This document shows positions 566 through 42,300 of a stretch of 50,344 bases of DNA, piece by piece. The position numbers were made by a program, and so were the translations under genes. How positions within the stretch are numbered: position 1 is the stretch's first letter; every line of letters starts with the position of its first letter. Under the pieces are notes generated by a model. It was not told where the DNA came from. It saw nothing but the letters and a program-made list of their open reading frames with translations, and searched no databases. This DNA comes from Candidatus Desulfatifera sulfidica (lineage in GTDB: Bacteria > Desulfobacterota > Desulfobulbia > Desulfobulbales > Desulfocapsaceae), in assembly GCA_014381505.1 (NCBI GenBank), contig JACNLK010000026.1, positions 1 to 50,344 on the forward strand, given 5' to 3'.

Positions 566-1096
566 ATGCGCTACACCCTTCTCATCCCTAATTTGCTCTC
601 GGCCAGCCGCTTTGTCCTGGCTGGCTTACTGCCCTTTTCGCCTGAACGCCTGTGGTTGTGGTTCATTCTGGCCAGTGCCTTCAGTGACCTGCTGGACGGT
701 TATCTCGCGCGACGCTGGAAGAGTCAGACCTGGCAGGGCGGACTGCTGGATGCATGCAGCGACAAAGTGTTCATGCTCGTGGCCATACTCACCTTTGCTG
801 CGGCCGGAAAGTTTTCCTATACATGGATTCCACTGCTCCTGAGCCGGGATTTGACAGTAGCTGCCGTTGCCGCCTACGCCGCCTGCAATCGTTCATGGAA
901 CTCTTTCCAAAACATGGGTTCACGATGGCCCGGCAAACTGGCAACCGGGGCACAGCTGCTCTTTCTGGCGTGCGTAGCTGCCTGTCCACAACTGATCCAC
1001 CTGGCCCTTCTTCTGACCATCACGCTCAGCCTGATTGCAGCTATTGATTACGGACGAATTTTCATTCATACCCTCGGTCAGCTCAACAAGGCCTGA
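566..1096 (+). CDS. CDP-alcohol phosphatidyltransferase family membrane protein
   Basis: This 176-residue integral membrane enzyme carries the complete family signature DG-x2-AR-x8-G-x3-D-x3-D, read here as DGYLAR, then G, D and D at about residues 44-66. These residues bind Mg2+ and the CDP-alcohol. The family transfers a phosphatidyl group from a CDP-lipid to an alcohol such as glycerol 3-phosphate, inositol phosphate or serine; the acceptor cannot be told from sequence. Several hydrophobic segments follow the motif, as expected. The ATG follows AT-rich sequence with only a weak ribosome site. The next gene begins 32 bases downstream and encodes a CarS-like CTP:lipid transferase, so the pair could make and then use a CDP-activated lipid. 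Distantly PgsA-like, but too divergent to assign. Confidence 0.85.
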   Translation: MRYTLLIPNLLSASRFVLAGLLPFSPERLWLWFILASAFSDLLDGYLARRWKSQTWQGGLLDACSDKVFMLVAILTFAAAGKFSYTWIPLLLSRDLTVAAVAAYAACNRSWNSFQNMGSRWPGKLATGAQLLFLACVAACPQLIHLALLLTITLSLIAAIDYGRIFIHTLGQLNKA

Positions 1097-1128
1097 CACA
1101 CCAATTCCACACCTCAGGAGGACATAAA

Positions 1129-2595
1129 ATGCAGACAATCATATCTGTACTGCTCTTCCTCCTCTGGCTCAACCTTATGCCCCCCCTGGCAGGACTGATC
1201 TTTGGCAAGCGGGGAAACTTCCCCGTCGACTGTCATCACACCTGGATTGATGGCCGACCTCTCTTCGGGGCCAACAAAACCATGCGCGGGATTCTGGCCA
1301 GTCTGGCTGGCGGGGCCATGGCCGGCCCCCTGATCGGGCTCCACTGGCAGGAAGGAATCATAGTTGCCGCCCTGGCCATGACCGGCGACCTGATTTCCAG
1401 TTTTTGCAAACGACGTTTTAAACGAAAAAGCGGTGAAGGCGTTTTTTTCCTCGACCAGGTCTTCGAAGGCTTGCTCCCACTGCTCTTCCTCAAGGCCATC
1501 CTGGGCTTCTCTATAACCCTGATGCTGGACAGCCTCCTGATCTTTGTCGCCCTGGCCTATGTCAGCTCCCGTTTCTGGCATTACGTCCTCTTTCGTCCCT
1601 CTCCTCAGGACTATCCAAAGACAGTCCGCTCCACGGTACGCCTGAGAGAATGGCGGGCCTGCCATGTCCCCCTGACTCGCTGGAAGACCCTGCTCAATCT
1701 CTCCAGCTTTCTCTCCAATCGCTTCCTTTTCACATGGATTTTCACCCTGGCCGGTCTCTATGATCGAGGAATCAGCAACGCCCTGAATGTACAGGTCAAA
1801 CACCATCATCTGAATTTCACCAATCTGCCGCCGGGCTTTGCCGGTTTCCGTATTCTCCTGCTCACCGACCTCCACCTCGACGGCCTGGACACACTGACAG
1901 AAAATATCATCGACAAGATCAATGGACTCGACTACGACCTCTGTCTCATGGGTGGCGATCTCCGCATGGAACTCTTTGGCCCCGCCGCTCCCTGCCTGCG
2001 TCAGCTGCGCAAACTGATACCAGCCCTCAAGTGTCCATACGGTGTACTGGGCGTACTGGGGAACCACGATTGTATCGAAATGATTCCAGATCTGGAAGAG
2101 GTCGGAATCACCATGCTCGTCAATGACTTCTGGGAAATAAAAAAGAATGGCGAATCAATATGGATCGTTGGTGTCGATGATCCCCATTATTACAAAATGG
2201 CCAATGCAGAAGAGGCCTACAAACACATTCCAGAGGGAGCGTTCTCCATCTTTCTGGCCCATTCTCCCGAAGCCTATGACGAGGCGGCCACGCACGGCGC
2301 CACACTTTACCTTTGCGGACATACACATGGCGGGCAGATCTGCCTGCCAGACAAACAACCACTCATCACAAACAGCCGAGCCCCTCGCCGCACTGCTGCC
2401 GGCCTTTGGCAACACAGGGACATGACAGGCATCACCTCCCGCGGCACAGGAACCTCATCCATTCCCCTGCGTTTCAACTGCCCTGGAGAAATTCTGCTCA
2501 TCACATTACATCAACCGGCCTCATCAACCAACAGAGAGCATCACAATACACCTGCCGAGCCAGACGGACACCGGCAGGAGATTGTCCCGGTCTAA
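1129..2595 (+). CDS. CarS-like CDP-lipid synthase fused to a metallophosphoesterase
   Basis: A 488-residue two-domain protein with a strong ribosome site (CAGGAGG) before its ATG. Residues 1 to about 170 are a multi-membrane-span domain of the CDP-archaeol synthase/DUF46 type: it has an NKTMRG motif near residue 50, and GDLISSFCKRR followed by FFLDQ near 85-112, the conserved cytoplasmic CTP-transfer motifs of CarS. Residues about 190-460 form a YkuE/YaeI-like membrane-anchored calcineurin-type phosphoesterase: a hydrophobic anchor, then DLHLDG, GGDLRME, GNHD, LAHSPEAYD and CGHTHGGQ supply all metal-binding blocks. The two halves are in one uninterrupted frame. By family knowledge the first half would make a CDP-lipid and the second would hydrolyse a phosphomonoester or pyrophosphate at the membrane. 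With the upstream phosphatidyltransferase this suggests a compact phospholipid pathway, which is an inference. Confidence 0.85.
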   Translation: MQTIISVLLFLLWLNLMPPLAGLIFGKRGNFPVDCHHTWIDGRPLFGANKTMRGILASLAGGAMAGPLIGLHWQEGIIVAALAMTGDLISSFCKRRFKRKSGEGVFFLDQVFEGLLPLLFLKAILGFSITLMLDSLLIFVALAYVSSRFWHYVLFRPSPQDYPKTVRSTVRLREWRACHVPLTRWKTLLNLSSFLSNRFLFTWIFTLAGLYDRGISNALNVQVKHHHLNFTNLPPGFAGFRILLLTDLHLDGLDTLTENIIDKINGLDYDLCLMGGDLRMELFGPAAPCLRQLRKLIPALKCPYGVLGVLGNHDCIEMIPDLEEVGITMLVNDFWEIKKNGESIWIVGVDDPHYYKMANAEEAYKHIPEGAFSIFLAHSPEAYDEAATHGATLYLCGHTHGGQICLPDKQPLITNSRAPRRTAAGLWQHRDMTGITSRGTGTSSIPLRFNCPGEILLITLHQPASSTNREHHNTPAEPDGHRQEIVPV

Positions 2596-4009: not shown

Positions 4010-5437
4010 ATGGAGATGTTGAACATCCTTACCCGCAAAACCAGCTCACTCTTTCAAAGCATCGCTCTGTCCATCACCCTGGCACTGTCCCTGTGCCTTT
4101 TACCCCTCTCGGCAACAACTTATGCACAAGCACCACCGCAGGAGAACCAGGCCCTGCTCCTGAGCATCAACGGTGCCATCGGCCCGGCGGTCAGTGACTA
4201 TGTAGGCAAGGGTCTGGAACGGGCCGACAATGAAAACTTCACATTGATCATCCTCCAGATGGATACACCTGGAGGGCTCGACAGCGCCATGCGCTCCATC
4301 ATTAAGAAAATATTGGCCTCACCGATCCCGATCGTCTCCCATGTCTGGCCCGAAGGCTCACGGGCAGCCAGTGCCGGAACATATATCCTCTACGCCTCCC
4401 ATGTGGCCGCCATGGCTCCAGCCACCAATCTGGGCGCGGCCACACCAGTAAGCATTGGCGGTCTGCCCAGCCTGCCCAACCCCGGATCTCAACCGGGTGA
4501 GGAATCAGAAGGGGAGGGCAGCCCCAAAATCCCGGCCACTGACCCCATGAAGGCCAAGGTCCTCAACGATGCCACAGCCTACATCAAGTCTTTGGCCGCC
4601 CGCCACAATCGCAACGAAGAGTGGGCAGAGCAGGCCGTCCGTGAAAGCGTCAGCCTGACCGCCACCGAAGCCCTGGAACTCAACGTTATCGATCTCATGG
4701 CCTCCGACATTGACGACCTCCTGGAGCAGCTCAACGGACGAACAATCCCGATGGATACAGGCCAGGTCCGCCTGAACACCGAACAGATGAAAATCATCCG
4801 CCACGATCCTGACTGGCGCGACCGCCTACTGGCAGCCATCAGTGACCCAAATATCGCCTATATCCTGCTGCTGGTCGGTATCTACGGCCTGATCTTCGAA
4901 GCCACACATCCCGGCGCTCTCCTGCCCGGAATTGTCGGTGCTATTGCCCTGCTCCTGGCCTTCTATACCTTCCAGATCCTGCCGGTCAACTACGCAGGTC
5001 TGGGCTTACTCCTCCTTGGCCTGGCCCTGATGGTGGCCGAGGTCTTTGCCCCCAGCTTCGGAGTCCTTGGCCTGGGTGGAATTGCCGCCTTTGTCTTCGG
5101 CTCAATCATCCTGGTCCAAGATGAACAGCTGCGCATCTCCCTGCATCTCATCGCAAGTACCGCCCTGAGCTCAGCGGCCTTCATCTTCTGGCTGACCACC
5201 CGTATCTATAGACTGCGCCGCCAGAGAGTCCGCACCGGCAGTGAAGAATTGACAAATCTGATTGTCAGGGCCAGTAATGATTTCACAGGCCATGGCTGGG
5301 TTCTTGTCCACGGTGAATCATGGCAGGCTCAAAGCACGACGCCAATCCACAAAAATCAGCAAGTCCGTATTGTCAATCGCGATGGCCTGTACCTGCAGGT
5401 CGAACCGCTCAACAAGAGTCAGCACAAGGAGCCCTGA
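4010..5437 (+). CDS. nfeD: NfeD-family membrane-bound serine protease (ClpP-class)
   Basis: A 475-residue protein with a signal-type hydrophobic stretch (residues about 16-40), a periplasmic ClpP-like protease domain, four C-terminal membrane segments (about 280-400) and an OB-fold NfeD domain at the end. The nucleophile Ser121 lies in AASAG and the general base Lys193 in AYIKSL, matching the Ser-Lys dyad known from archaeal 1510-N; MDTPGG (about 84-89) forms the oxyanion region. A low-complexity Gly/Pro/Glu insert (about 149-178) sits between them. The family cleaves hydrophobic C-termini of stomatin-like proteins, and such a gene follows two bases after the stop codon. The Shine-Dalgarno is GGAG before the ATG. 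Confidence 0.93.
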
Positions 5438-5438
5438 T

Positions 5439-6218
5439 ATGATCACTCTTCCTTATCTCTTACCAGTTGTCATGCTCATCGGCCTGATCGCCGTCTCACT
5501 GAAAATCGTTCCGGAATTCGAACGACTGGTGGTCTTTTTTCTGGGTCGCTTCCAGGTGGTCAAAAAACCTGGTCTGCGCCTGATCATCCCCGGTATCCAG
5601 CAGGCCGTCCGGGTGGATCTCCGGGTGATTACCATGGATGTCCCCAGCCAGGATGTCATCTCCCGCGACAATGTTACGGTCCGGGTCAACGCGGTTCTCT
5701 ACTTCCGGGTCGTGGACCCGGAGCGGGCGATCATCCAGGTGGAAGACTACTACAACGCCACCAGCCAGCTGGCCCAGACCACCCTGCGTTCGGTGCTGGG
5801 ACAGCATGAACTGGACGAGATGCTCTCGGAACGGGAGAAGATGAACCGAGACCTCCAGGAGATCATCGACCTGCAGACCGACGCCTGGGGGATCAAGGTC
5901 AGCAATGTTGAGATCAAGCACGTGGACCTCAACGAGTCCATGATCCGGGCCATCGCCAAGCAGGCCGAGGCCGAACGTGAACGACGGGCCAAGATCATCC
6001 ACGCCGAGGGTGAACTGCAGGCCTCTGAAAAACTGGTGGCCGCGGCCAATGTCCTCTCCACCAATCCCCAGGCCCTGCAGCTCCGCTACCTGCAGACCTT
6101 AAACGATATCTCCAACGAAAACAGCAGCACCATTATTTTCCCTCTGCCCATTGAAACCATCATGACCTTCATGGGCAAAAATGAACAGACAACCCGAACG
6201 ACAAACAAACAGACATAG
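5439..6218 (+). CDS. Slipin / stomatin-like SPFH-domain membrane protein
   Basis: A 259-residue prohibitin/stomatin homologue. A single N-terminal membrane hairpin (residues about 4-22) is followed by the SPFH domain, with the characteristic [22 protein letters not shown] and [20 protein letters not shown] segments, and an Ala/Glu-rich coiled coil ([15 protein letters not shown]). The start chosen is the ATG at 5439, because AAGGA precedes it at 5426-5430 and it lies one base after the nfeD stop; an in-frame upstream extension would run through nfeD. nfeD-slipin pairs form membrane quality-control modules, the slipin forming oligomeric microdomains and being the NfeD protease substrate or partner. 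The last residues are Thr/Asn/Gln-rich and probably disordered. Confidence 0.93.
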
Positions 6219-30748: not shown

Positions 30749-33700
30749 ATGACCGTACGCTGGAAAGACCTCAGTTTCAAATTGCCCCTGATCGTTCTGC
30801 TCATCGGTCTTGTCCCTCTGGCCGGCTTCGGGCTGTTTTCGATCCGTTATGAAGCGGATGCCTTACTCAAGGTTCGGGGCCAGGGGGTTCGGCGCAGTGC
30901 TGTGCTGACGGCCAGCGCCATTGAACGGACCATACAGGGTGTCAAACAAGGTTTCCAACGGTCAGCCGAAAACCTGGACCTGCTCGCTCTTGATAAAACC
31001 GATCAGGAATGGGCATTGATGACCTTGCTGATCCAATGGCCGAATTTCAAGTCTCTGGCTCTGCTCGATGCTCAGGGGCAGGAGCAGATCAAAGTGGCCA
31101 ATAATCAAAACTTTCTTCCCAGCGACCTGCAGAGCCGGGCGCATGATCCGGCTTTTCGTGAAACACTCGAGGGACATCACTATCTTGATGCGGGCCGACG
31201 TCTTGAAAACGGCGAATATGTCTCCAGTCTGTCCATTCCCATGCTGAATCCGGCGACACAAGAGGTAGAGGCGGTGCTGATTGCAGATTTTCATCTCAAG
31301 GGCATTATGGATGTCGCCACTTCGATCAAGATCGGTCAAACAGGACAGACCTATGTCATTGACAAGCAAGGGCTGTTGATTGCCCATAATGACATGAGTC
31401 TGGCTCTGCGCGGCGAACGGCTACAAAGCTTGGCGATGCTCAATCAGCCCGTCCGTTTTATCAGCGTTGAAGGGCACGAAGTTCTTGGTAGCGCCATTGC
31501 TATTAACGGCACAGACTGGCTAATGGTGGCAGAGGTGCCCATGACCGAGATCACCGCCGTGGCCAATAAGCTGATGCGGATTTTGTACGGAATATTGATT
31601 GCATCAGCCTTGCTCCTGGTCTTTCCCATGGCATTCTATCTGATTTTGCGCATCAGCCGGCCCCTGCAGCGCCTGGAAAAGGGTGCGGTCAAGATCGGTG
31701 CAGGGAAGTTTGGAGAGCCACTGCCGGTTAAAAACGATGATGAAATCGGTCGCATGTCCCACGCATTCAATGATATGGCCGGTAAACTCCAGCATTTTTC
31801 TGAGGAAACCGAACGCATCAACTGGCTGAAGGCTGGGTTGAGCGGACTGGATGAGCAATTGCGCGGTACGCCAAGCCTTAAGGAGTTGGCCAGCAGGACC
31901 AGCAGTTTTCTTGCAGAGTATGTCGGGGCACCCGTCGGGGCTTTTTACGTCCAAAATACAAAGGGAAATTTCGTTCTGACCGGGGGCTATGCCCATGCTG
32001 CCGGGCCGGAATCGGTCAAGACTTTTGCACCCGGCCAAGGGCTGGTCGGGCAGGCTGCACTCGAGCAAAAGATGCTCGTCATTGATGCAATCCCCGAAGG
32101 CTATCTCAGTGTAAGCTCCAGTCTTGGCTCGCAAAAGCCAGTAACGATTCTGGTGATTCCGTTAATCCACGATGGGATCGTGGTGGCAGTTCTGGAACTC
32201 GGCAAGTTCAAACCGTTTTCTGGCCGGGAGAAAATGTTTATCGAACAGGCGGCGGCACCCTTGGCCGTCACGGTCAATTCTGCCAATGCACGCCATGAGC
32301 TGAACGTTTCTCTTGAAAAATCTCAAAAGCTCACCGAAAAACTGCAGGTCCAGCAGGAGGAGTTGCGGATTGCGAACGAGGAGCTCGCAGAACAAACCCA
32401 GGAACTTCAGGCTTCAGAGGAACAGCTCCGCGTTCAGCAGGAGGAACTGCGGATTTCCAATGAAGAGCTCGAAGAAAAAAGCATCTCTCTTACCGAGCAG
32501 AAAAAAGACTTGGTCGACAAAAATATTGAACTTCAGAATACAAAGACCCATCTGGAACAGAAGTCGATCGAAGTGGAACGTGCCAGCCGGTATAAATCAG
32601 AGTTCTTGGCCAACATGTCGCACGAACTCCGCACGCCGCTGAACAGCCTCCTGATTCTCTCGCAGGATCTGGCAAACAACGGCAAAGGGAATCTCCTCCC
32701 TGAGCAGGTTGAAGCAGCCGAAATCGTTTATAACAGCGGCAACGACCTGCTTAAGCTGATCAATGAAATTCTTGATCTGGCCAAGATTGAGTCTGGCAAG
32801 CTGTCGCTGGCAGTCAGTGATGTTCCCATCTCTGACATTATCGGCAGACTGGAGAAAAGCTTTCAACATATAGCCAAAGAACAACGGCTTGGGTTAGAGA
32901 TTTCGTGTGATGACGCGGTTCCGGAAACCATTCGTACCGACCCGGCCCGGCTCGATCAGATTCTGAAAAATCTTGTCTCCAATGCCTTGAAGTTTACCGA
33001 AGAAGGGCAGGTGACGATTTCTGTTACGCCAGTCAAAAACGGGGACGGTGCCATCTCTATTGCCGTGACTGATACCGGTATCGGAATAGCGCAGGAAAGT
33101 CTGGAAGGGATATTCAACGCATTCCAGCAAATCGATGGATCAATTTCCAGAAAATTCAGTGGAACCGGACTCGGCCTTTCAATATCCCGCGAGCTGACTA
33201 AACTGCTTGGTGGAGAATTGCAGGCCACCAGCCAGCCCGGTATTGGCTCGACCTTTACCCTGATTCTCCCCCCCTACAGGGAAACAGTCGAGACGGCCCC
33301 TGCGAGTCCCCCAGAGACAACCAAACAGCAATCGCCTCAGGTTACAGCTCCGGCAAAAAATACAGATGCGTCCTCCATCGCCGATGAGCGTGACGAACTG
33401 CAACCAGAGGACAAGCGAATTCTTATTATTGAGGATGACCTGTCGTTTGCCAAAATCCTGGCGGAACGCTGTCAGAAACGCGGATTCAAATTTTTACATG
33501 CCGGCGATGGCGAAACGGGTCTGGAGCTGGTGGAAAGATATTCTCCTGACGCCATTATCCTTGATATGCGACTTCCTGGAATTCAGGGGATGGAGGTTCT
33601 CGATGCCATTAAGGACAACCCGCAGATTCGACACATCCCGGTGCATATTATGTCAGCCTATGAAAACACCGGGGAGGCCTTTGCCCATGGTGCAATCGGT

Positions 33701-34585
33701 TTTTTACAGAAACCCATCAACCAGGAGCAACTTGGTCAGGCGTTCACCAAATTGGAGGAAATGATCTCCGGAAAAATCCGTAACCTCTTGATCGTTGAAG
33801 ACAATATAGATCAGCAAAAAAGTATTCAGACGCTGATCGGCAATGGCGATGTCAACACCCTCATCGCTGGAACCGGCGAGGAGGCACTGACAATCTATAA
33901 CGAGGAGCAGATCGACTGTATCATTCTCGATCTGAACCTGCCGGAAATGACCGGACTGCAGTTTCTTGAGCGGCTGAGCACACTGACCCAAAATTCGCTT
34001 CCCCCGGTTATCATTTATTCGGCGCGGGAGTTAACGCGTGAAGAGGTTGAAGAACTGAACGAATATACCCAGTCGATCGTTATCAAAGGGGCAGAAGCTC
34101 CGGCCCGATTGCTGGATGAAGCGTCACTCTTTCTGCACCGCGTTGTGGGTAATTTGCCTCAACAGAAGCAGCAGATGATCAACGAACTTTACGATCAAAG
34201 CAATCTGTTTCAGGGTAAAAAAATTCTTCTGGTCGACGATGATATGCGTAACATTTTTGCTATTGCAAAAATTCTGGAAGAGAAAGGCGCCCAGGTTTTA
34301 AAAGCGGCAAACGGCCAGAAGGCACTCGATTTGCTGGCAACTACCGAGAAGGTCGGGCTGGTGTTGATGGATATCATGATGCCGGTGATGGACGGGCTTA
34401 CGGCCATGAAACAGATTCGTGCCCAGAAGCAATTTGAGAGCTTACCAATCATAGCACTGACCGCCAAAGCCATGGAGGAAGATCGCAAGCAATGTATTGC
34501 GGCCGGGGCCAATGACTATCTGTCCAAGCCGGTGGATATCAATCGTCTGCTTTCATTGATCAGAGTCTGGATCCTGCGCAAATGA
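30749..34585 (+). CDS. Transmembrane hybrid histidine kinase with three receiver domains
   Basis: About 1278 residues. Two membrane segments (about 8-30 and 275-298) bracket a periplasmic dCache-like sensor. Then come HAMP (about 300-352), GAF (about 375-520), a long coiled coil with repeated QQEELRI(A/S)NEELEE units (about 530-610), HisKA with FLANMSHELRTPLNSLL, HATPase (NLVSNALKFTEEG, DTGIGI, GTGLGLSI), and three receivers. Each receiver retains its Asp (IILDMRLPG, IILDLNLPE, VLMDIMMP) and a matching Lys. The ATG at 30749 is chosen because AGGAG lies nine bases upstream; GTG at 30743 is too close. It lies directly behind the binding-protein gene and in the same orientation as cheR and cheB. 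Confidence 0.93.
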   Translation: MTVRWKDLSFKLPLIVLLIGLVPLAGFGLFSIRYEADALLKVRGQGVRRSAVLTASAIERTIQGVKQGFQRSAENLDLLALDKTDQEWALMTLLIQWPNFKSLALLDAQGQEQIKVANNQNFLPSDLQSRAHDPAFRETLEGHHYLDAGRRLENGEYVSSLSIPMLNPATQEVEAVLIADFHLKGIMDVATSIKIGQTGQTYVIDKQGLLIAHNDMSLALRGERLQSLAMLNQPVRFISVEGHEVLGSAIAINGTDWLMVAEVPMTEITAVANKLMRILYGILIASALLLVFPMAFYLILRISRPLQRLEKGAVKIGAGKFGEPLPVKNDDEIGRMSHAFNDMAGKLQHFSEETERINWLKAGLSGLDEQLRGTPSLKELASRTSSFLAEYVGAPVGAFYVQNTKGNFVLTGGYAHAAGPESVKTFAPGQGLVGQAALEQKMLVIDAIPEGYLSVSSSLGSQKPVTILVIPLIHDGIVVAVLELGKFKPFSGREKMFIEQAAAPLAVTVNSANARHELNVSLEKSQKLTEKLQVQQEELRIANEELAEQTQELQASEEQLRVQQEELRISNEELEEKSISLTEQKKDLVDKNIELQNTKTHLEQKSIEVERASRYKSEFLANMSHELRTPLNSLLILSQDLANNGKGNLLPEQVEAAEIVYNSGNDLLKLINEILDLAKIESGKLSLAVSDVPISDIIGRLEKSFQHIAKEQRLGLEISCDDAVPETIRTDPARLDQILKNLVSNALKFTEEGQVTISVTPVKNGDGAISIAVTDTGIGIAQESLEGIFNAFQQIDGSISRKFSGTGLGLSISRELTKLLGGELQATSQPGIGSTFTLILPPYRETVETAPASPPETTKQQSPQVTAPAKNTDASSIADERDELQPEDKRILIIEDDLSFAKILAERCQKRGFKFLHAGDGETGLELVERYSPDAIILDMRLPGIQGMEVLDAIKDNPQIRHIPVHIMSAYENTGEAFAHGAIGFLQKPINQEQLGQAFTKLEEMISGKIRNLLIVEDNIDQQKSIQTLIGNGDVNTLIAGTGEEALTIYNEEQIDCIILDLNLPEMTGLQFLERLSTLTQNSLPPVIIYSARELTREEVEELNEYTQSIVIKGAEAPARLLDEASLFLHRVVGNLPQQKQQMINELYDQSNLFQGKKILLVDDDMRNIFAIAKILEEKGAQVLKAANGQKALDLLATTEKVGLVLMDIMMPVMDGLTAMKQIRAQKQFESLPIIALTAKAMEEDRKQCIAAGANDYLSKPVDINRLLSLIRVWILRK

Positions 34586-40077: not shown

Positions 40078-40809
40078 ATGGACAAGGAGCAGTGGCAGGA
40101 AAAAGGGCAGGGACACCGACAACGACTTCGAGACCGTTTTCTTGAGCGTGGCCTGGAGGGGTTCACAGATGCCGAAGTTCTGGAACTGCTGCTCACCTTT
40201 GGCACGCCGCGCAGTGACTGCAAAGAACCCGCCCGGGCCGCCCTGCAGGAGTTCGGTTCTCTGGCCGCAGTCCTTGAAGCGCCACTCACTGCCCTGCAGA
40301 AGATTAAGGGGATCGGCCCCAAAAACAGTTTTGCCATCCACTTTGCCCAGGCAACCGCCCGCCGCTACCTGGCAGCCAGGCTGCAGGGCAAGCGCTACCT
40401 CCACTCATCGGGTGAGGTGCGCGATTTCCTGCTCCATTCCCTGCGCGGCCTGAAAAAAGAGGTCTTTCAGGTCATCTTTCTCGACACGGCCCATGCCATC
40501 ATCGACACCAGGACCGTGGCCGAGGGAACCATCAACGTCAACACCATCTACCCGCGTGAACTCCTGCAGCAGGCCATGGAACTGAACGCCGCCGCTCTGA
40601 TCCTCGCCCACAATCACCCATCCGGCAGTCTGCAACCCTCCTCACAGGACCTTCAATTGACCCGAAGCCTGTGTCTGGTGGGCTCATTCATGCACATCCA
40701 GATTCTCGACCACCTGATCATCGGCGACGGATGTTACTCCATGGCGGATCACGGCCTCATGGAAGAGTTGCGCCAGGATGCCGTTCGCGCAGCCGAGACC
40801 CTGCGCTGA
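40078..40809 (+). CDS. radC: RadC-family JAB1 domain protein
   Basis: A 243-residue protein. The N-terminal helix-hairpin-helix region (IKGIGPKNSFAIHFAQA, about 78-94) is followed by the JAB1/MPN+ domain from about 120. The zinc motif HNHPSGSLQPSSQD (HxHx10D, about 183-196) and the upstream glutamate (KEVFQVIFLD) are conserved, so the metalloprotease-like site appears intact. Despite its name, RadC's role in DNA repair is not established. It starts 14 bases after the gatB stop. Immediately after its stop codon lies a 110-bp palindromic element whose left arm begins two bases after radC ends. Confidence 0.93.
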   Translation: MDKEQWQEKGQGHRQRLRDRFLERGLEGFTDAEVLELLLTFGTPRSDCKEPARAALQEFGSLAAVLEAPLTALQKIKGIGPKNSFAIHFAQATARRYLAARLQGKRYLHSSGEVRDFLLHSLRGLKKEVFQVIFLDTAHAIIDTRTVAEGTINVNTIYPRELLQQAMELNAAALILAHNHPSGSLQPSSQDLQLTRSLCLVGSFMHIQILDHLIIGDGCYSMADHGLMEELRQDAVRAAETLR

Positions 40810-41172: not shown

Positions 41173-42300
41173 ATGAGCTGTCTATATATCCACATTCCGT
41201 TCTGTCTGCAGAAATGCGCCTATTGCTCCTTTGTCTCCTTTGGCGGGCGAGAAGAACTCTTTGGTCGTTACGTGGCGACCCTCTGCCGGGAGGCTGAACA
41301 GACTGCAGCCCGAGCGGCCCATACACCGCTGAGCACCCTGTTCTTTGGCGGCGGCACCCCCAGTCTGCTCCCTGCTGCATCAATCAGCAAGATCATCGAC
41401 TGTTGCCACGACCTGCTTGGCTTTACTTCCGGGATTGAAATTTCACTCGAGGCCAATCCCGGAACCATCGACTATGCAAAACTTGCTGAACTGCGCCGGG
41501 CCGGGGTCAACCGCTTGTCCATCGGAGTCCAGAGCTTTGATGACCATGAACTGCACAGATTAGGGCGCGCCCACAACGGCGAGCAGGCCCTGACGACTGT
41601 CAGGCATGCCAGAAAGGCAGGGTTTGACAATCTCAGCCTGGATCTGATGTCAGGTCTGCCCGGCCAGTCAGCGGATGCCTGGCGTCGGAATCTGGAACAG
41701 GCCCTGGCCCTCAATCCGGAGCACCTCTCCTGCTACCAGCTGACCATTGAAGAGGACACACCTTTTGGCCGCCTCCAGAATCAAGGCCTCCTGGAGCTGC
41801 CCCATGAAGATGCAATTGTAGCCATGGATGAGATAACCCACACTCTCTGTCCTGCAGCCGGACTCGAACGCTACGAGATCTCCAACTTTGCCCGCCCCGG
41901 TCAGGAATGCCGGCACAACCTCAACTACTGGCACAATCGCCCCTATCTTGCGCTTGGGGCCGGAGCGGTCTCCTACGACACCAAGCGACGGCAGCGACGG
42001 CTCAGTGACCCTCAACGCTACTGCGAGCTCATGGAGTCAGGGGATTCTATTGTTATTGACGAGGAAAATCTGGGCACTGAGGCCAGCTTCCGCGAGACTA
42101 TCATCATGGGCCTGCGCCTGATCCAAGGTGTTTCAATCAACGAACTGCAGCACCGTTTCCACCTCAATCCAGGCAGCTATTACGGCGAGACACTTGATCG
42201 CCTGATCAGCCGGAATCTGCTGATCATCGAGCAGGACAGACTCCGCCTCACCCCCCACGGCCTCACCTTTGCCAACAGAGTCATGGCCGAACTGGTCTGA
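41173..42300 (+). CDS. hemW: Radical SAM heme chaperone HemW
   Basis: A 375-residue protein. The start at 41173 gives MSCLYIHIPFCLQKCAYCSF, with the CxxxCxxC [4Fe-4S] motif (C11, C15, C18 region) very close to the N-terminus. FFGGGTPSLL (about 57-66), ISLEANPGT, VNRLSIGVQSFDD, LDLMSGLPGQ and YQLTIEEDTPFG are HemW blocks. The usual C-terminal HemN-like winged-helix region follows (LTPHGLTFANRVMAEL). HemW has the fold of oxygen-independent coproporphyrinogen oxidase HemN but inserts heme into proteins rather than oxidising porphyrin. No other heme genes are adjacent, and the sequence upstream is the mobile-like palindrome region. Confidence 0.94.
   Translation: MSCLYIHIPFCLQKCAYCSFVSFGGREELFGRYVATLCREAEQTAARAAHTPLSTLFFGGGTPSLLPAASISKIIDCCHDLLGFTSGIEISLEANPGTIDYAKLAELRRAGVNRLSIGVQSFDDHELHRLGRAHNGEQALTTVRHARKAGFDNLSLDLMSGLPGQSADAWRRNLEQALALNPEHLSCYQLTIEEDTPFGRLQNQGLLELPHEDAIVAMDEITHTLCPAAGLERYEISNFARPGQECRHNLNYWHNRPYLALGAGAVSYDTKRRQRRLSDPQRYCELMESGDSIVIDEENLGTEASFRETIIMGLRLIQGVSINELQHRFHLNPGSYYGETLDRLISRNLLIIEQDRLRLTPHGLTFANRVMAELV

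Follow-up and report, generated by a model that had tools for sequence, protein, structure and literature searches.

CarS has been regarded as one of the enzymes separating archaeal from bacterial membranes. The locus considered here is situated near the left end of the window (the whole analyzed stretch of 50,344 nt from Candidatus Desulfatifera sulfidica). It encodes a CarS-like CTP-transferase joined in one polypeptide with a metallophosphoesterase (MPE), next to a gene for a CDP-alcohol phosphatidyltransferase (CDP-AP), and the question is which lipid chemistry such a combination performs in a bacterium. The two ORFs are co-directional and separated by 32 nt (Table 1). An earlier note on this DNA treated positions 566-2595 as one feature; the ORFs lie where it placed them, but the span lumps two genes, the fused protein alone occupying 1129-2595. 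Given the short gap and the strong ribosome-binding site CAGGAGG before the fusion gene, the two genes are likely co-transcribed.

Table 1. Features of the CDP-AP/fusion locus (positions in the window).
Feature	Positions	Strand	Details
CDP-alcohol phosphatidyltransferase (CDP-AP), PgsA/ClsA-like subfamily	566-1096	+	176 aa; PF01066
Ribosome-binding site CAGGAGG and spacer, inside the 32-nt intergenic gap	1115-1128	+	sequence read directly
Fused CarS-like CTP-transferase/metallophosphoesterase (MPE)	1129-2595	+	488 aa; PF01864 and PF00149
CarS-like domain, residues 1-160	1129-1608	+	PF01864; 5guf match; five predicted membrane helices
Linker, residues 161-217	1609-1779	+	basic stretch, then helix 183-207
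Calcineurin-type metallophosphoesterase domain, residues 218-462	1780-2514	+	PF00149; motifs

The N-terminal half of the fused protein is a CarS-type domain, as the earlier note had proposed: PF01864 matches residues 4-142 (Pfam, E 2e-11, 44.6 bits, cut-off 22), so that a failure of this region to match CarS profiles, named there as grounds for dropping the idea, was not observed. The same half matches the sequence of the solved archaeal CarS, 5guf (E 1.7e-8). In the AlphaFold model of the fusion (six homologues as input, mean pLDDT 73, below 50 in the linker 154-197), the CarS half has 5guf as its best Foldseek match (TM-score 0.74, normalised by target length), and the superposition of this predicted model on 5guf (Z 14.9, rmsd 2.5 A, 143 residues, 30% identity) reproduces the five-helix CarS fold. 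The motifs of this half are DGRPLFGxxKTxRG, GDLxSSFxKRR and LDQxFE; the CTP/Mg-binding motifs among them (GD..SF.KRR, LDQ, KT.RG) align to those of 5guf and are kept throughout the family alignments. In particular, residues D34, D41, K50, T51, D87, S91, K94, R95, R96, D109 and E113 are invariant in 22 fusions aligned end to end (the window's protein plus 21 homologues sharing 39-75% identity with it), and the same residues are invariant in 16 bacterial CarS, both fused and free-standing.

Thus, the bacterial proteins share with the archaeal CDP-archaeol synthase CarS (PF01864, PRK04032/NF003114; 5guf) the five-helix fold and the motifs DGR..G..KT.(R)G, GD..SF.KRR and LDQ. Unlike it, they fall below the archaeal CarS equivalog cut-off (NF003114, 62.6 bits with the cut-off 148), come with a phosphohydrolase, either fused or as a separate partner, and reside in hosts lacking the archaeal lipid precursor pathway. 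Moreover, the motif LDQLD of 5guf is replaced in the bacterial proteins by LDQxxE, with the glutamate one position later, and this shifted acidic residue may hint at a substrate different from that of archaeal CarS.

The C-terminal half, read in the earlier note as a complete calcineurin-type phosphatase, is indeed one. PF00149 matches residues 240-401 above the cut-off (Pfam, E 2.6e-8, 35 bits, cut-off 21.5), the motifs TDLHL, GGDLR, GNHD, HSPE and GHTHGGQ are all present, and the metal-binding residues D247, H249, D277, N312, H313, H378, H398 and H400 are invariant in the 22 fusions. As the active-site residues of both halves are invariant in these proteins, both halves are selected as enzymes. 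The motif set TDLHL, GD, GNHD, HSPE, GHTHGGQ is shared with the YaeI/YkuE/LpxG branch, from which the fused MPE differs in having no evident signal peptide, in being joined to CarS, and in scoring below the NCBIfam equivalog cut-offs of both YaeI (82.3 bits, cut-off 188) and LpxG, the UDP-2,3-diacylglucosamine diphosphatase (68.5 bits, cut-off 350). The structural neighbours of the predicted MPE model (Mre11, GpdQ, Rv0805, 5'-nucleotidases) do not discriminate between monoester, diester and pyrophosphate substrates.

The side of the membrane on which the MPE resides is suggested by several features. CarS has five membrane helices, with two active loops on the cytosolic side (PMC9385802), so that its C terminus would lie in the cytosol. 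The linker that follows is basic (the 40 residues 150-190 have a net charge of about +6), its residues R171, E174 and C178 being invariant in the 22 fusions. Helix 183-207, preceding the MPE, is weakly hydrophobic, with the family-mean hydropathy of 0.22 compared to 0.66-1.51 for the CarS helices, and is probably amphipathic. The free-standing MPE relatives start with a charged N terminus and have no signal sequence evident by eye. Based on the cytosolic CarS terminus, the basic linker, the weakly hydrophobic helix and the relatives without evident signals, the MPE is most likely cytosolic and membrane-associated. YaeI-like proteins can bear export signals, and so a sixth membrane helix, with the MPE following it in the periplasm, was considered as well; prediction speaks against it, since the segment is weakly hydrophobic on the family average and the relatives carry no evident signal.

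A bacterial CarS profile was run on 395 genomes of the phylum, fused and free-standing proteins being sorted by open-frame length. CarS-like proteins are encoded in 36 genomes, 22 of them fused to the MPE and 14 free-standing (the latter count includes G156, which has a longer frame). As the fusion recurs as a single open frame in 22 of the 395 genomes, it is not an assembly artefact. The genome counts ignore kinship, and since the carriers group in families f87, f80, f99 and f47, independent events are fewer than genomes. The survey covers these 395 genomes plus a small number of plasmids from proteobacteria, and a single genome scan returned only close relatives. The closest named fusion carriers comprise, besides a MAG of the Desulfobulbaceae, the culturable Desulfogranum marinum DSM 2058 (locus L006; a genus placed in Desulfobulbales, Thermodesulfobacteriota) and other 'Deltaproteobacteria' MAGs, and the host of the window is very probably related to these sulfate reducers. 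The other observation that the earlier note held to be adverse was a wide bacterial occurrence of the fusion together with a known role of another kind; the fusion is indeed common in the phylum, but no role of it is known.

The free-standing CarS genes have a partner of their own. A gene encoding a PHP-fold phosphohydrolase is located directly downstream of CarS in 13 of the 14 genomes, and in the remaining one (G253) it follows at about 1.5 kb (CarS ends at 40519, PHP starts at 41979). It is found in all 14 genomes with free-standing CarS, in none of the 14 fusion genomes tested and in none of the 12 tested genomes without CarS. The assignment of these proteins as CehA/McbA-like relies on a weak profile match (67 bits, cut-off 80). 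Like the fused MPE, the CehA/McbA-like PHP metallohydrolase is a metal-dependent phosphohydrolase linked to CarS, but it has an unrelated fold and is encoded by a separate gene.

A third arrangement is observed in Methylobacterium nodulans and Bosea sp., on whose plasmids a RefSeq 'CDP-archaeol synthase' of the same CarS-like family lies beside an MPE of the same subfamily, about 46% identical to the fused one; in contrast to the window's fusion, these CarS and MPE are separate convergent neighbours. In the CarS tree (whose archaeal root is unusable, the branch length being 4.1), fused and free-standing proteins part on one well-supported branch, while the proteobacterial CarS cluster with the PHP-linked ones, and hence the MPE partner occurs with both kinds of CarS. 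On a Variovorax plasmid, neither MPE nor PHP is found within 8 kb of CarS. Family f64 has close relatives of the MPE, but CarS was not detected in those stretches that were examined. Four free-standing MPEs (L094, L095, L096 and L097, from G249, G124, G226 and G129, respectively), 39-45% identical to the fused MPE, have a different N-terminal extension, and no CarS was found in the stretches examined around them.

The functional link between the CarS and MPE domains, suggested earlier from the window's protein, is strengthened by these data, as the two are fused, neighbouring, or have the MPE replaced by an unrelated PHP enzyme. That the CTP-transferase is retained with phosphohydrolases whose two folds are unrelated provides good evidence for a hydrolysis step within the pathway. 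Judging from gene content, the conserved unit is the CTP-transferase plus a phosphohydrolase. Every genome of the phylum examined that has CarS keeps this gene fused to, or near, a phosphohydrolase, which points to an accessory lipid pathway and not to membranes of the archaeal type.

The CDP-AP does not share this distribution. The gene product upstream of the fusion matches PF01066 (Pfam, E 1e-17, 65.4 bits, cut-off 22) and its translation contains the complete motif (DLLDGYLAR...GGLLDACSD, fitting D-x2-D-G-x2-A-R-x8-G-x3-D-x3-D), and so a CDP-alcohol transferase does adjoin the fusion, as had been claimed. It is not a canonical PgsA: its best NCBIfam match, TIGR00560 pgsA, scores 66.8 bits, not reaching the cut-off of 109.1, whereas the other copy in the genome scores 138.9. 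Within the window's family, six genomes (G000, G001, G005, G013, G018, G004) encode its orthologues, with 44-75% identity; these are all five fusion-bearing genomes tested and one (G004) of the 12 fusion-less ones. In four of the five (G000, G001, G005, G013) the gene adjoins the fusion, while in G018 the two are on different contigs; it is also adjacent to the fusion in G399, a later detected genome of the same family, and, in the reversed order, in the 'Deltaproteobacteria' MAG L002. The pair is flanked by different genes, with a Lon-like protease upstream in the window and in G001, and, in G005, an S49 peptidase together with a protein bearing a Gate domain; hence mere inheritance of gene order does not account for the adjacency.

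Beyond the window's family, the search of fusion genomes yielded only distant, housekeeping-like CDP-APs and no dedicated orthologue, and it detected none in the three tested genomes of the PHP type either, which sets the transfer step outside the conserved core. The CDP-AP is thus not a part of the core, but a specialised partner restricted to the window's family and a single other MAG.

The window's genome (2.08 Mb, 101 contigs, 94% complete) has a full set of housekeeping lipid enzymes: canonical CdsA (on C43, between uppS and dxr), PgsA (on C84, over the TIGR00560 cut-off with the above 138.9 bits), PssA (on C2), PgpA (on C89) and LpxI (on C27). Elsewhere, CdsA is present in all 26 further CarS-bearing genomes tested, PgpA in 41 of the 43 and LpxI in 29 of the 30 genomes tested. 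With these enzymes in place, the CarS-MPE system is accessory. The earlier proposal that the fusion and the CDP-AP form a route from PGP to PG is not supported as that of the cell, as separate PgsA and PgpA are encoded in the genome. Two further candidate roles were rejected, that of the main PG pathway or a CdsA replacement, since canonical CdsA, PgsA, PssA and PgpA exist, and that of a missing lipid A hydrolase for the MPE, since LpxI is present. A fourth CDP-AP of this genome is encoded on C3 at about 33458-34099 (L123:459-1100, minus strand, 214 aa), between an aminotransferase-like ORF and another ORF; it resembles PssA/archaetidylserine synthase, with scores below the cut-offs, and possibly serves a separate head-group pathway, e.g. 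that of a phosphonolipid.

We tentatively propose, as the reading with the best support but giving it close to but less than an even chance, that the fusion acts at the membrane with two active sites and serves an accessory pathway of the phospholipid type, comprising CTP activation, CDP-AP transfer and phosphate removal. The CarS-like half would use CTP and Mg2+ at the cytosolic face of the membrane to convert a lipid phosphomonoester to a CDP-lipid. The middle step would be performed, in the window's family, by the PgsA-like CDP-AP encoded next to the fusion, which would displace CMP with a phosphorylated alcohol, e.g. glycerol- or inositol-phosphate. The fused MPE, anchored at the same cytosolic face by the putative amphipathic helix, would finally strip the remaining phosphate of the lipid product as a phosphomonoesterase, pulling the sequence forward. 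The proposed order of reactions is that of bacterial PG synthesis by CdsA, PgsA and PgpA; the difference is that the window's enzymes are CarS-like, PgsA-like and MPE, that they are clustered, and that the genome has its own CdsA, PgsA and PgpA.

The three-step model is favoured by the intact CarS and MPE sites, the pairing counts, the split plasmid neighbours and the CDP-AP orthologues in the window's family. Against it, we count the lack of a dedicated CDP-AP orthologue outside the window's family and in the three PHP-type genomes, the frequency of PgpA given above, due to which a PGP phosphatase is not needed, the f64 MPE relatives without detected CarS, and the Variovorax CarS with no MPE or PHP nearby. 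A broader formulation, possible if somewhat doubtful, would be a lipid-modification module in which a CarS-family CDP-lipid synthase is obligatorily coupled to a phosphohydrolase, enzymes of the calcineurin type and of the PHP fold having taken the latter role independently, and the head group or lipid lying outside the CdsA-PgsA-PgpA route.

The phosphohydrolase may instead act on the CDP-lipid or another nucleotide-diphospho-lipid as a pyrophosphatase, similar to LpxH/LpxG or ADPRibase-Mn/CDP-alcohol diphosphatase, the fusion then controlling the CDP-lipid level or recycling lipid phosphate. This would require no CDP-AP, and so fits the genomes without a linked one, and it is in line with the matches of the MPE to the LpxG (68 bits) and YaeI (82 bits) models, both below the cut-off, with LpxH among the lower Foldseek matches, and with the CDP-alcohol diphosphatases described in the MPE superfamily (PMC4334965, PMC3407115). 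However, one polypeptide making and breaking the same bond would run a futile cycle unless regulated, the CDP-AP neighbour is left unexplained, and, with LpxI in 29 of the 30 genomes, the MPE is not needed as a lipid A enzyme; overall, we regard this explanation as unlikely.

The reverse order, with the phosphohydrolase acting first on a diphosphate- or nucleotide-linked lipid to yield the lipid monophosphate, and the CarS half then activating it with CTP for housekeeping CDP-APs, agrees with the conserved core consisting of only the CTP-transferase and the phosphohydrolase and with the canonical CDP-APs available in the window's genome; still, the neighbouring genes vary by lineage and indicate no substrate for it, and we consider it quite unlikely. 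Related CTP-using membrane families include lipid-alcohol kinases, and the CarS-like half could be such a CTP-dependent kinase (dolichol- or phytol-kinase-like) opposed by the phosphohydrolase, but this is improbable, as the match is specifically to CarS (PF01864, PRK04032, 5guf).

Archaeal-type isoprenoid ether lipids, which the earlier note considered since the CTP-transferase is archaeal-like, have in their favour the homology to CDP-archaeol synthase, but they are hardly credible here: GGGP synthase (PF01884) has no match in the window's genome and none over the cut-off in the 29 CarS-bearing genomes, while archaeal and Bacillus control sequences were detected in the same search, and the equivalog score (62.6 bits, cut-off 148) is likewise adverse. 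Such lipids are therefore not supported, and archaeal DGGGP is an unlikely substrate.

Returning to the accessory pathway proposed above, a bacterial CarS-like clade that is accompanied by a phosphohydrolase, in genomes with CdsA and without GGGP synthase, suggests that the CarS family performs other lipid chemistry in bacteria. The 'CDP-archaeol synthase' labels in bacterial records, which, like the single domains, are already known, should not be taken as evidence for archaeal lipids. In the literature searched, we found no description of the fusion, of the constant CarS-phosphohydrolase pairing or of the swap between two folds, which we consider new, although the search was limited in its reach and its outcome is weak evidence. 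The exchange of one phosphohydrolase fold for another renders the coupled step directly testable.

The neighbouring genes, considered as a hint at the substrate, have nothing in common between lineages. They encode, depending on the lineage, a Lon-like protease, S49 peptidase, GidB, ABC exporter, carbonic anhydrase or aminopeptidase. In L086, L087 and L093 (from G230, G315 and G295), CarS and PHP directly follow a long ORF of 574-599 aa, which in L087 encodes an ABC exporter of the ABC_membrane/ABC_tran type. CarS is located behind the GidB gene in L088, L089, L090 and L092 and, by eye, also in L145; the gene that comes after PHP in L089 is LptD. In the window itself, an ordinary pair is recognised by eye in the translations at 4010-6218, where the gene of an NfeD-like membrane protease precedes an SPFH/stomatin-like gene.
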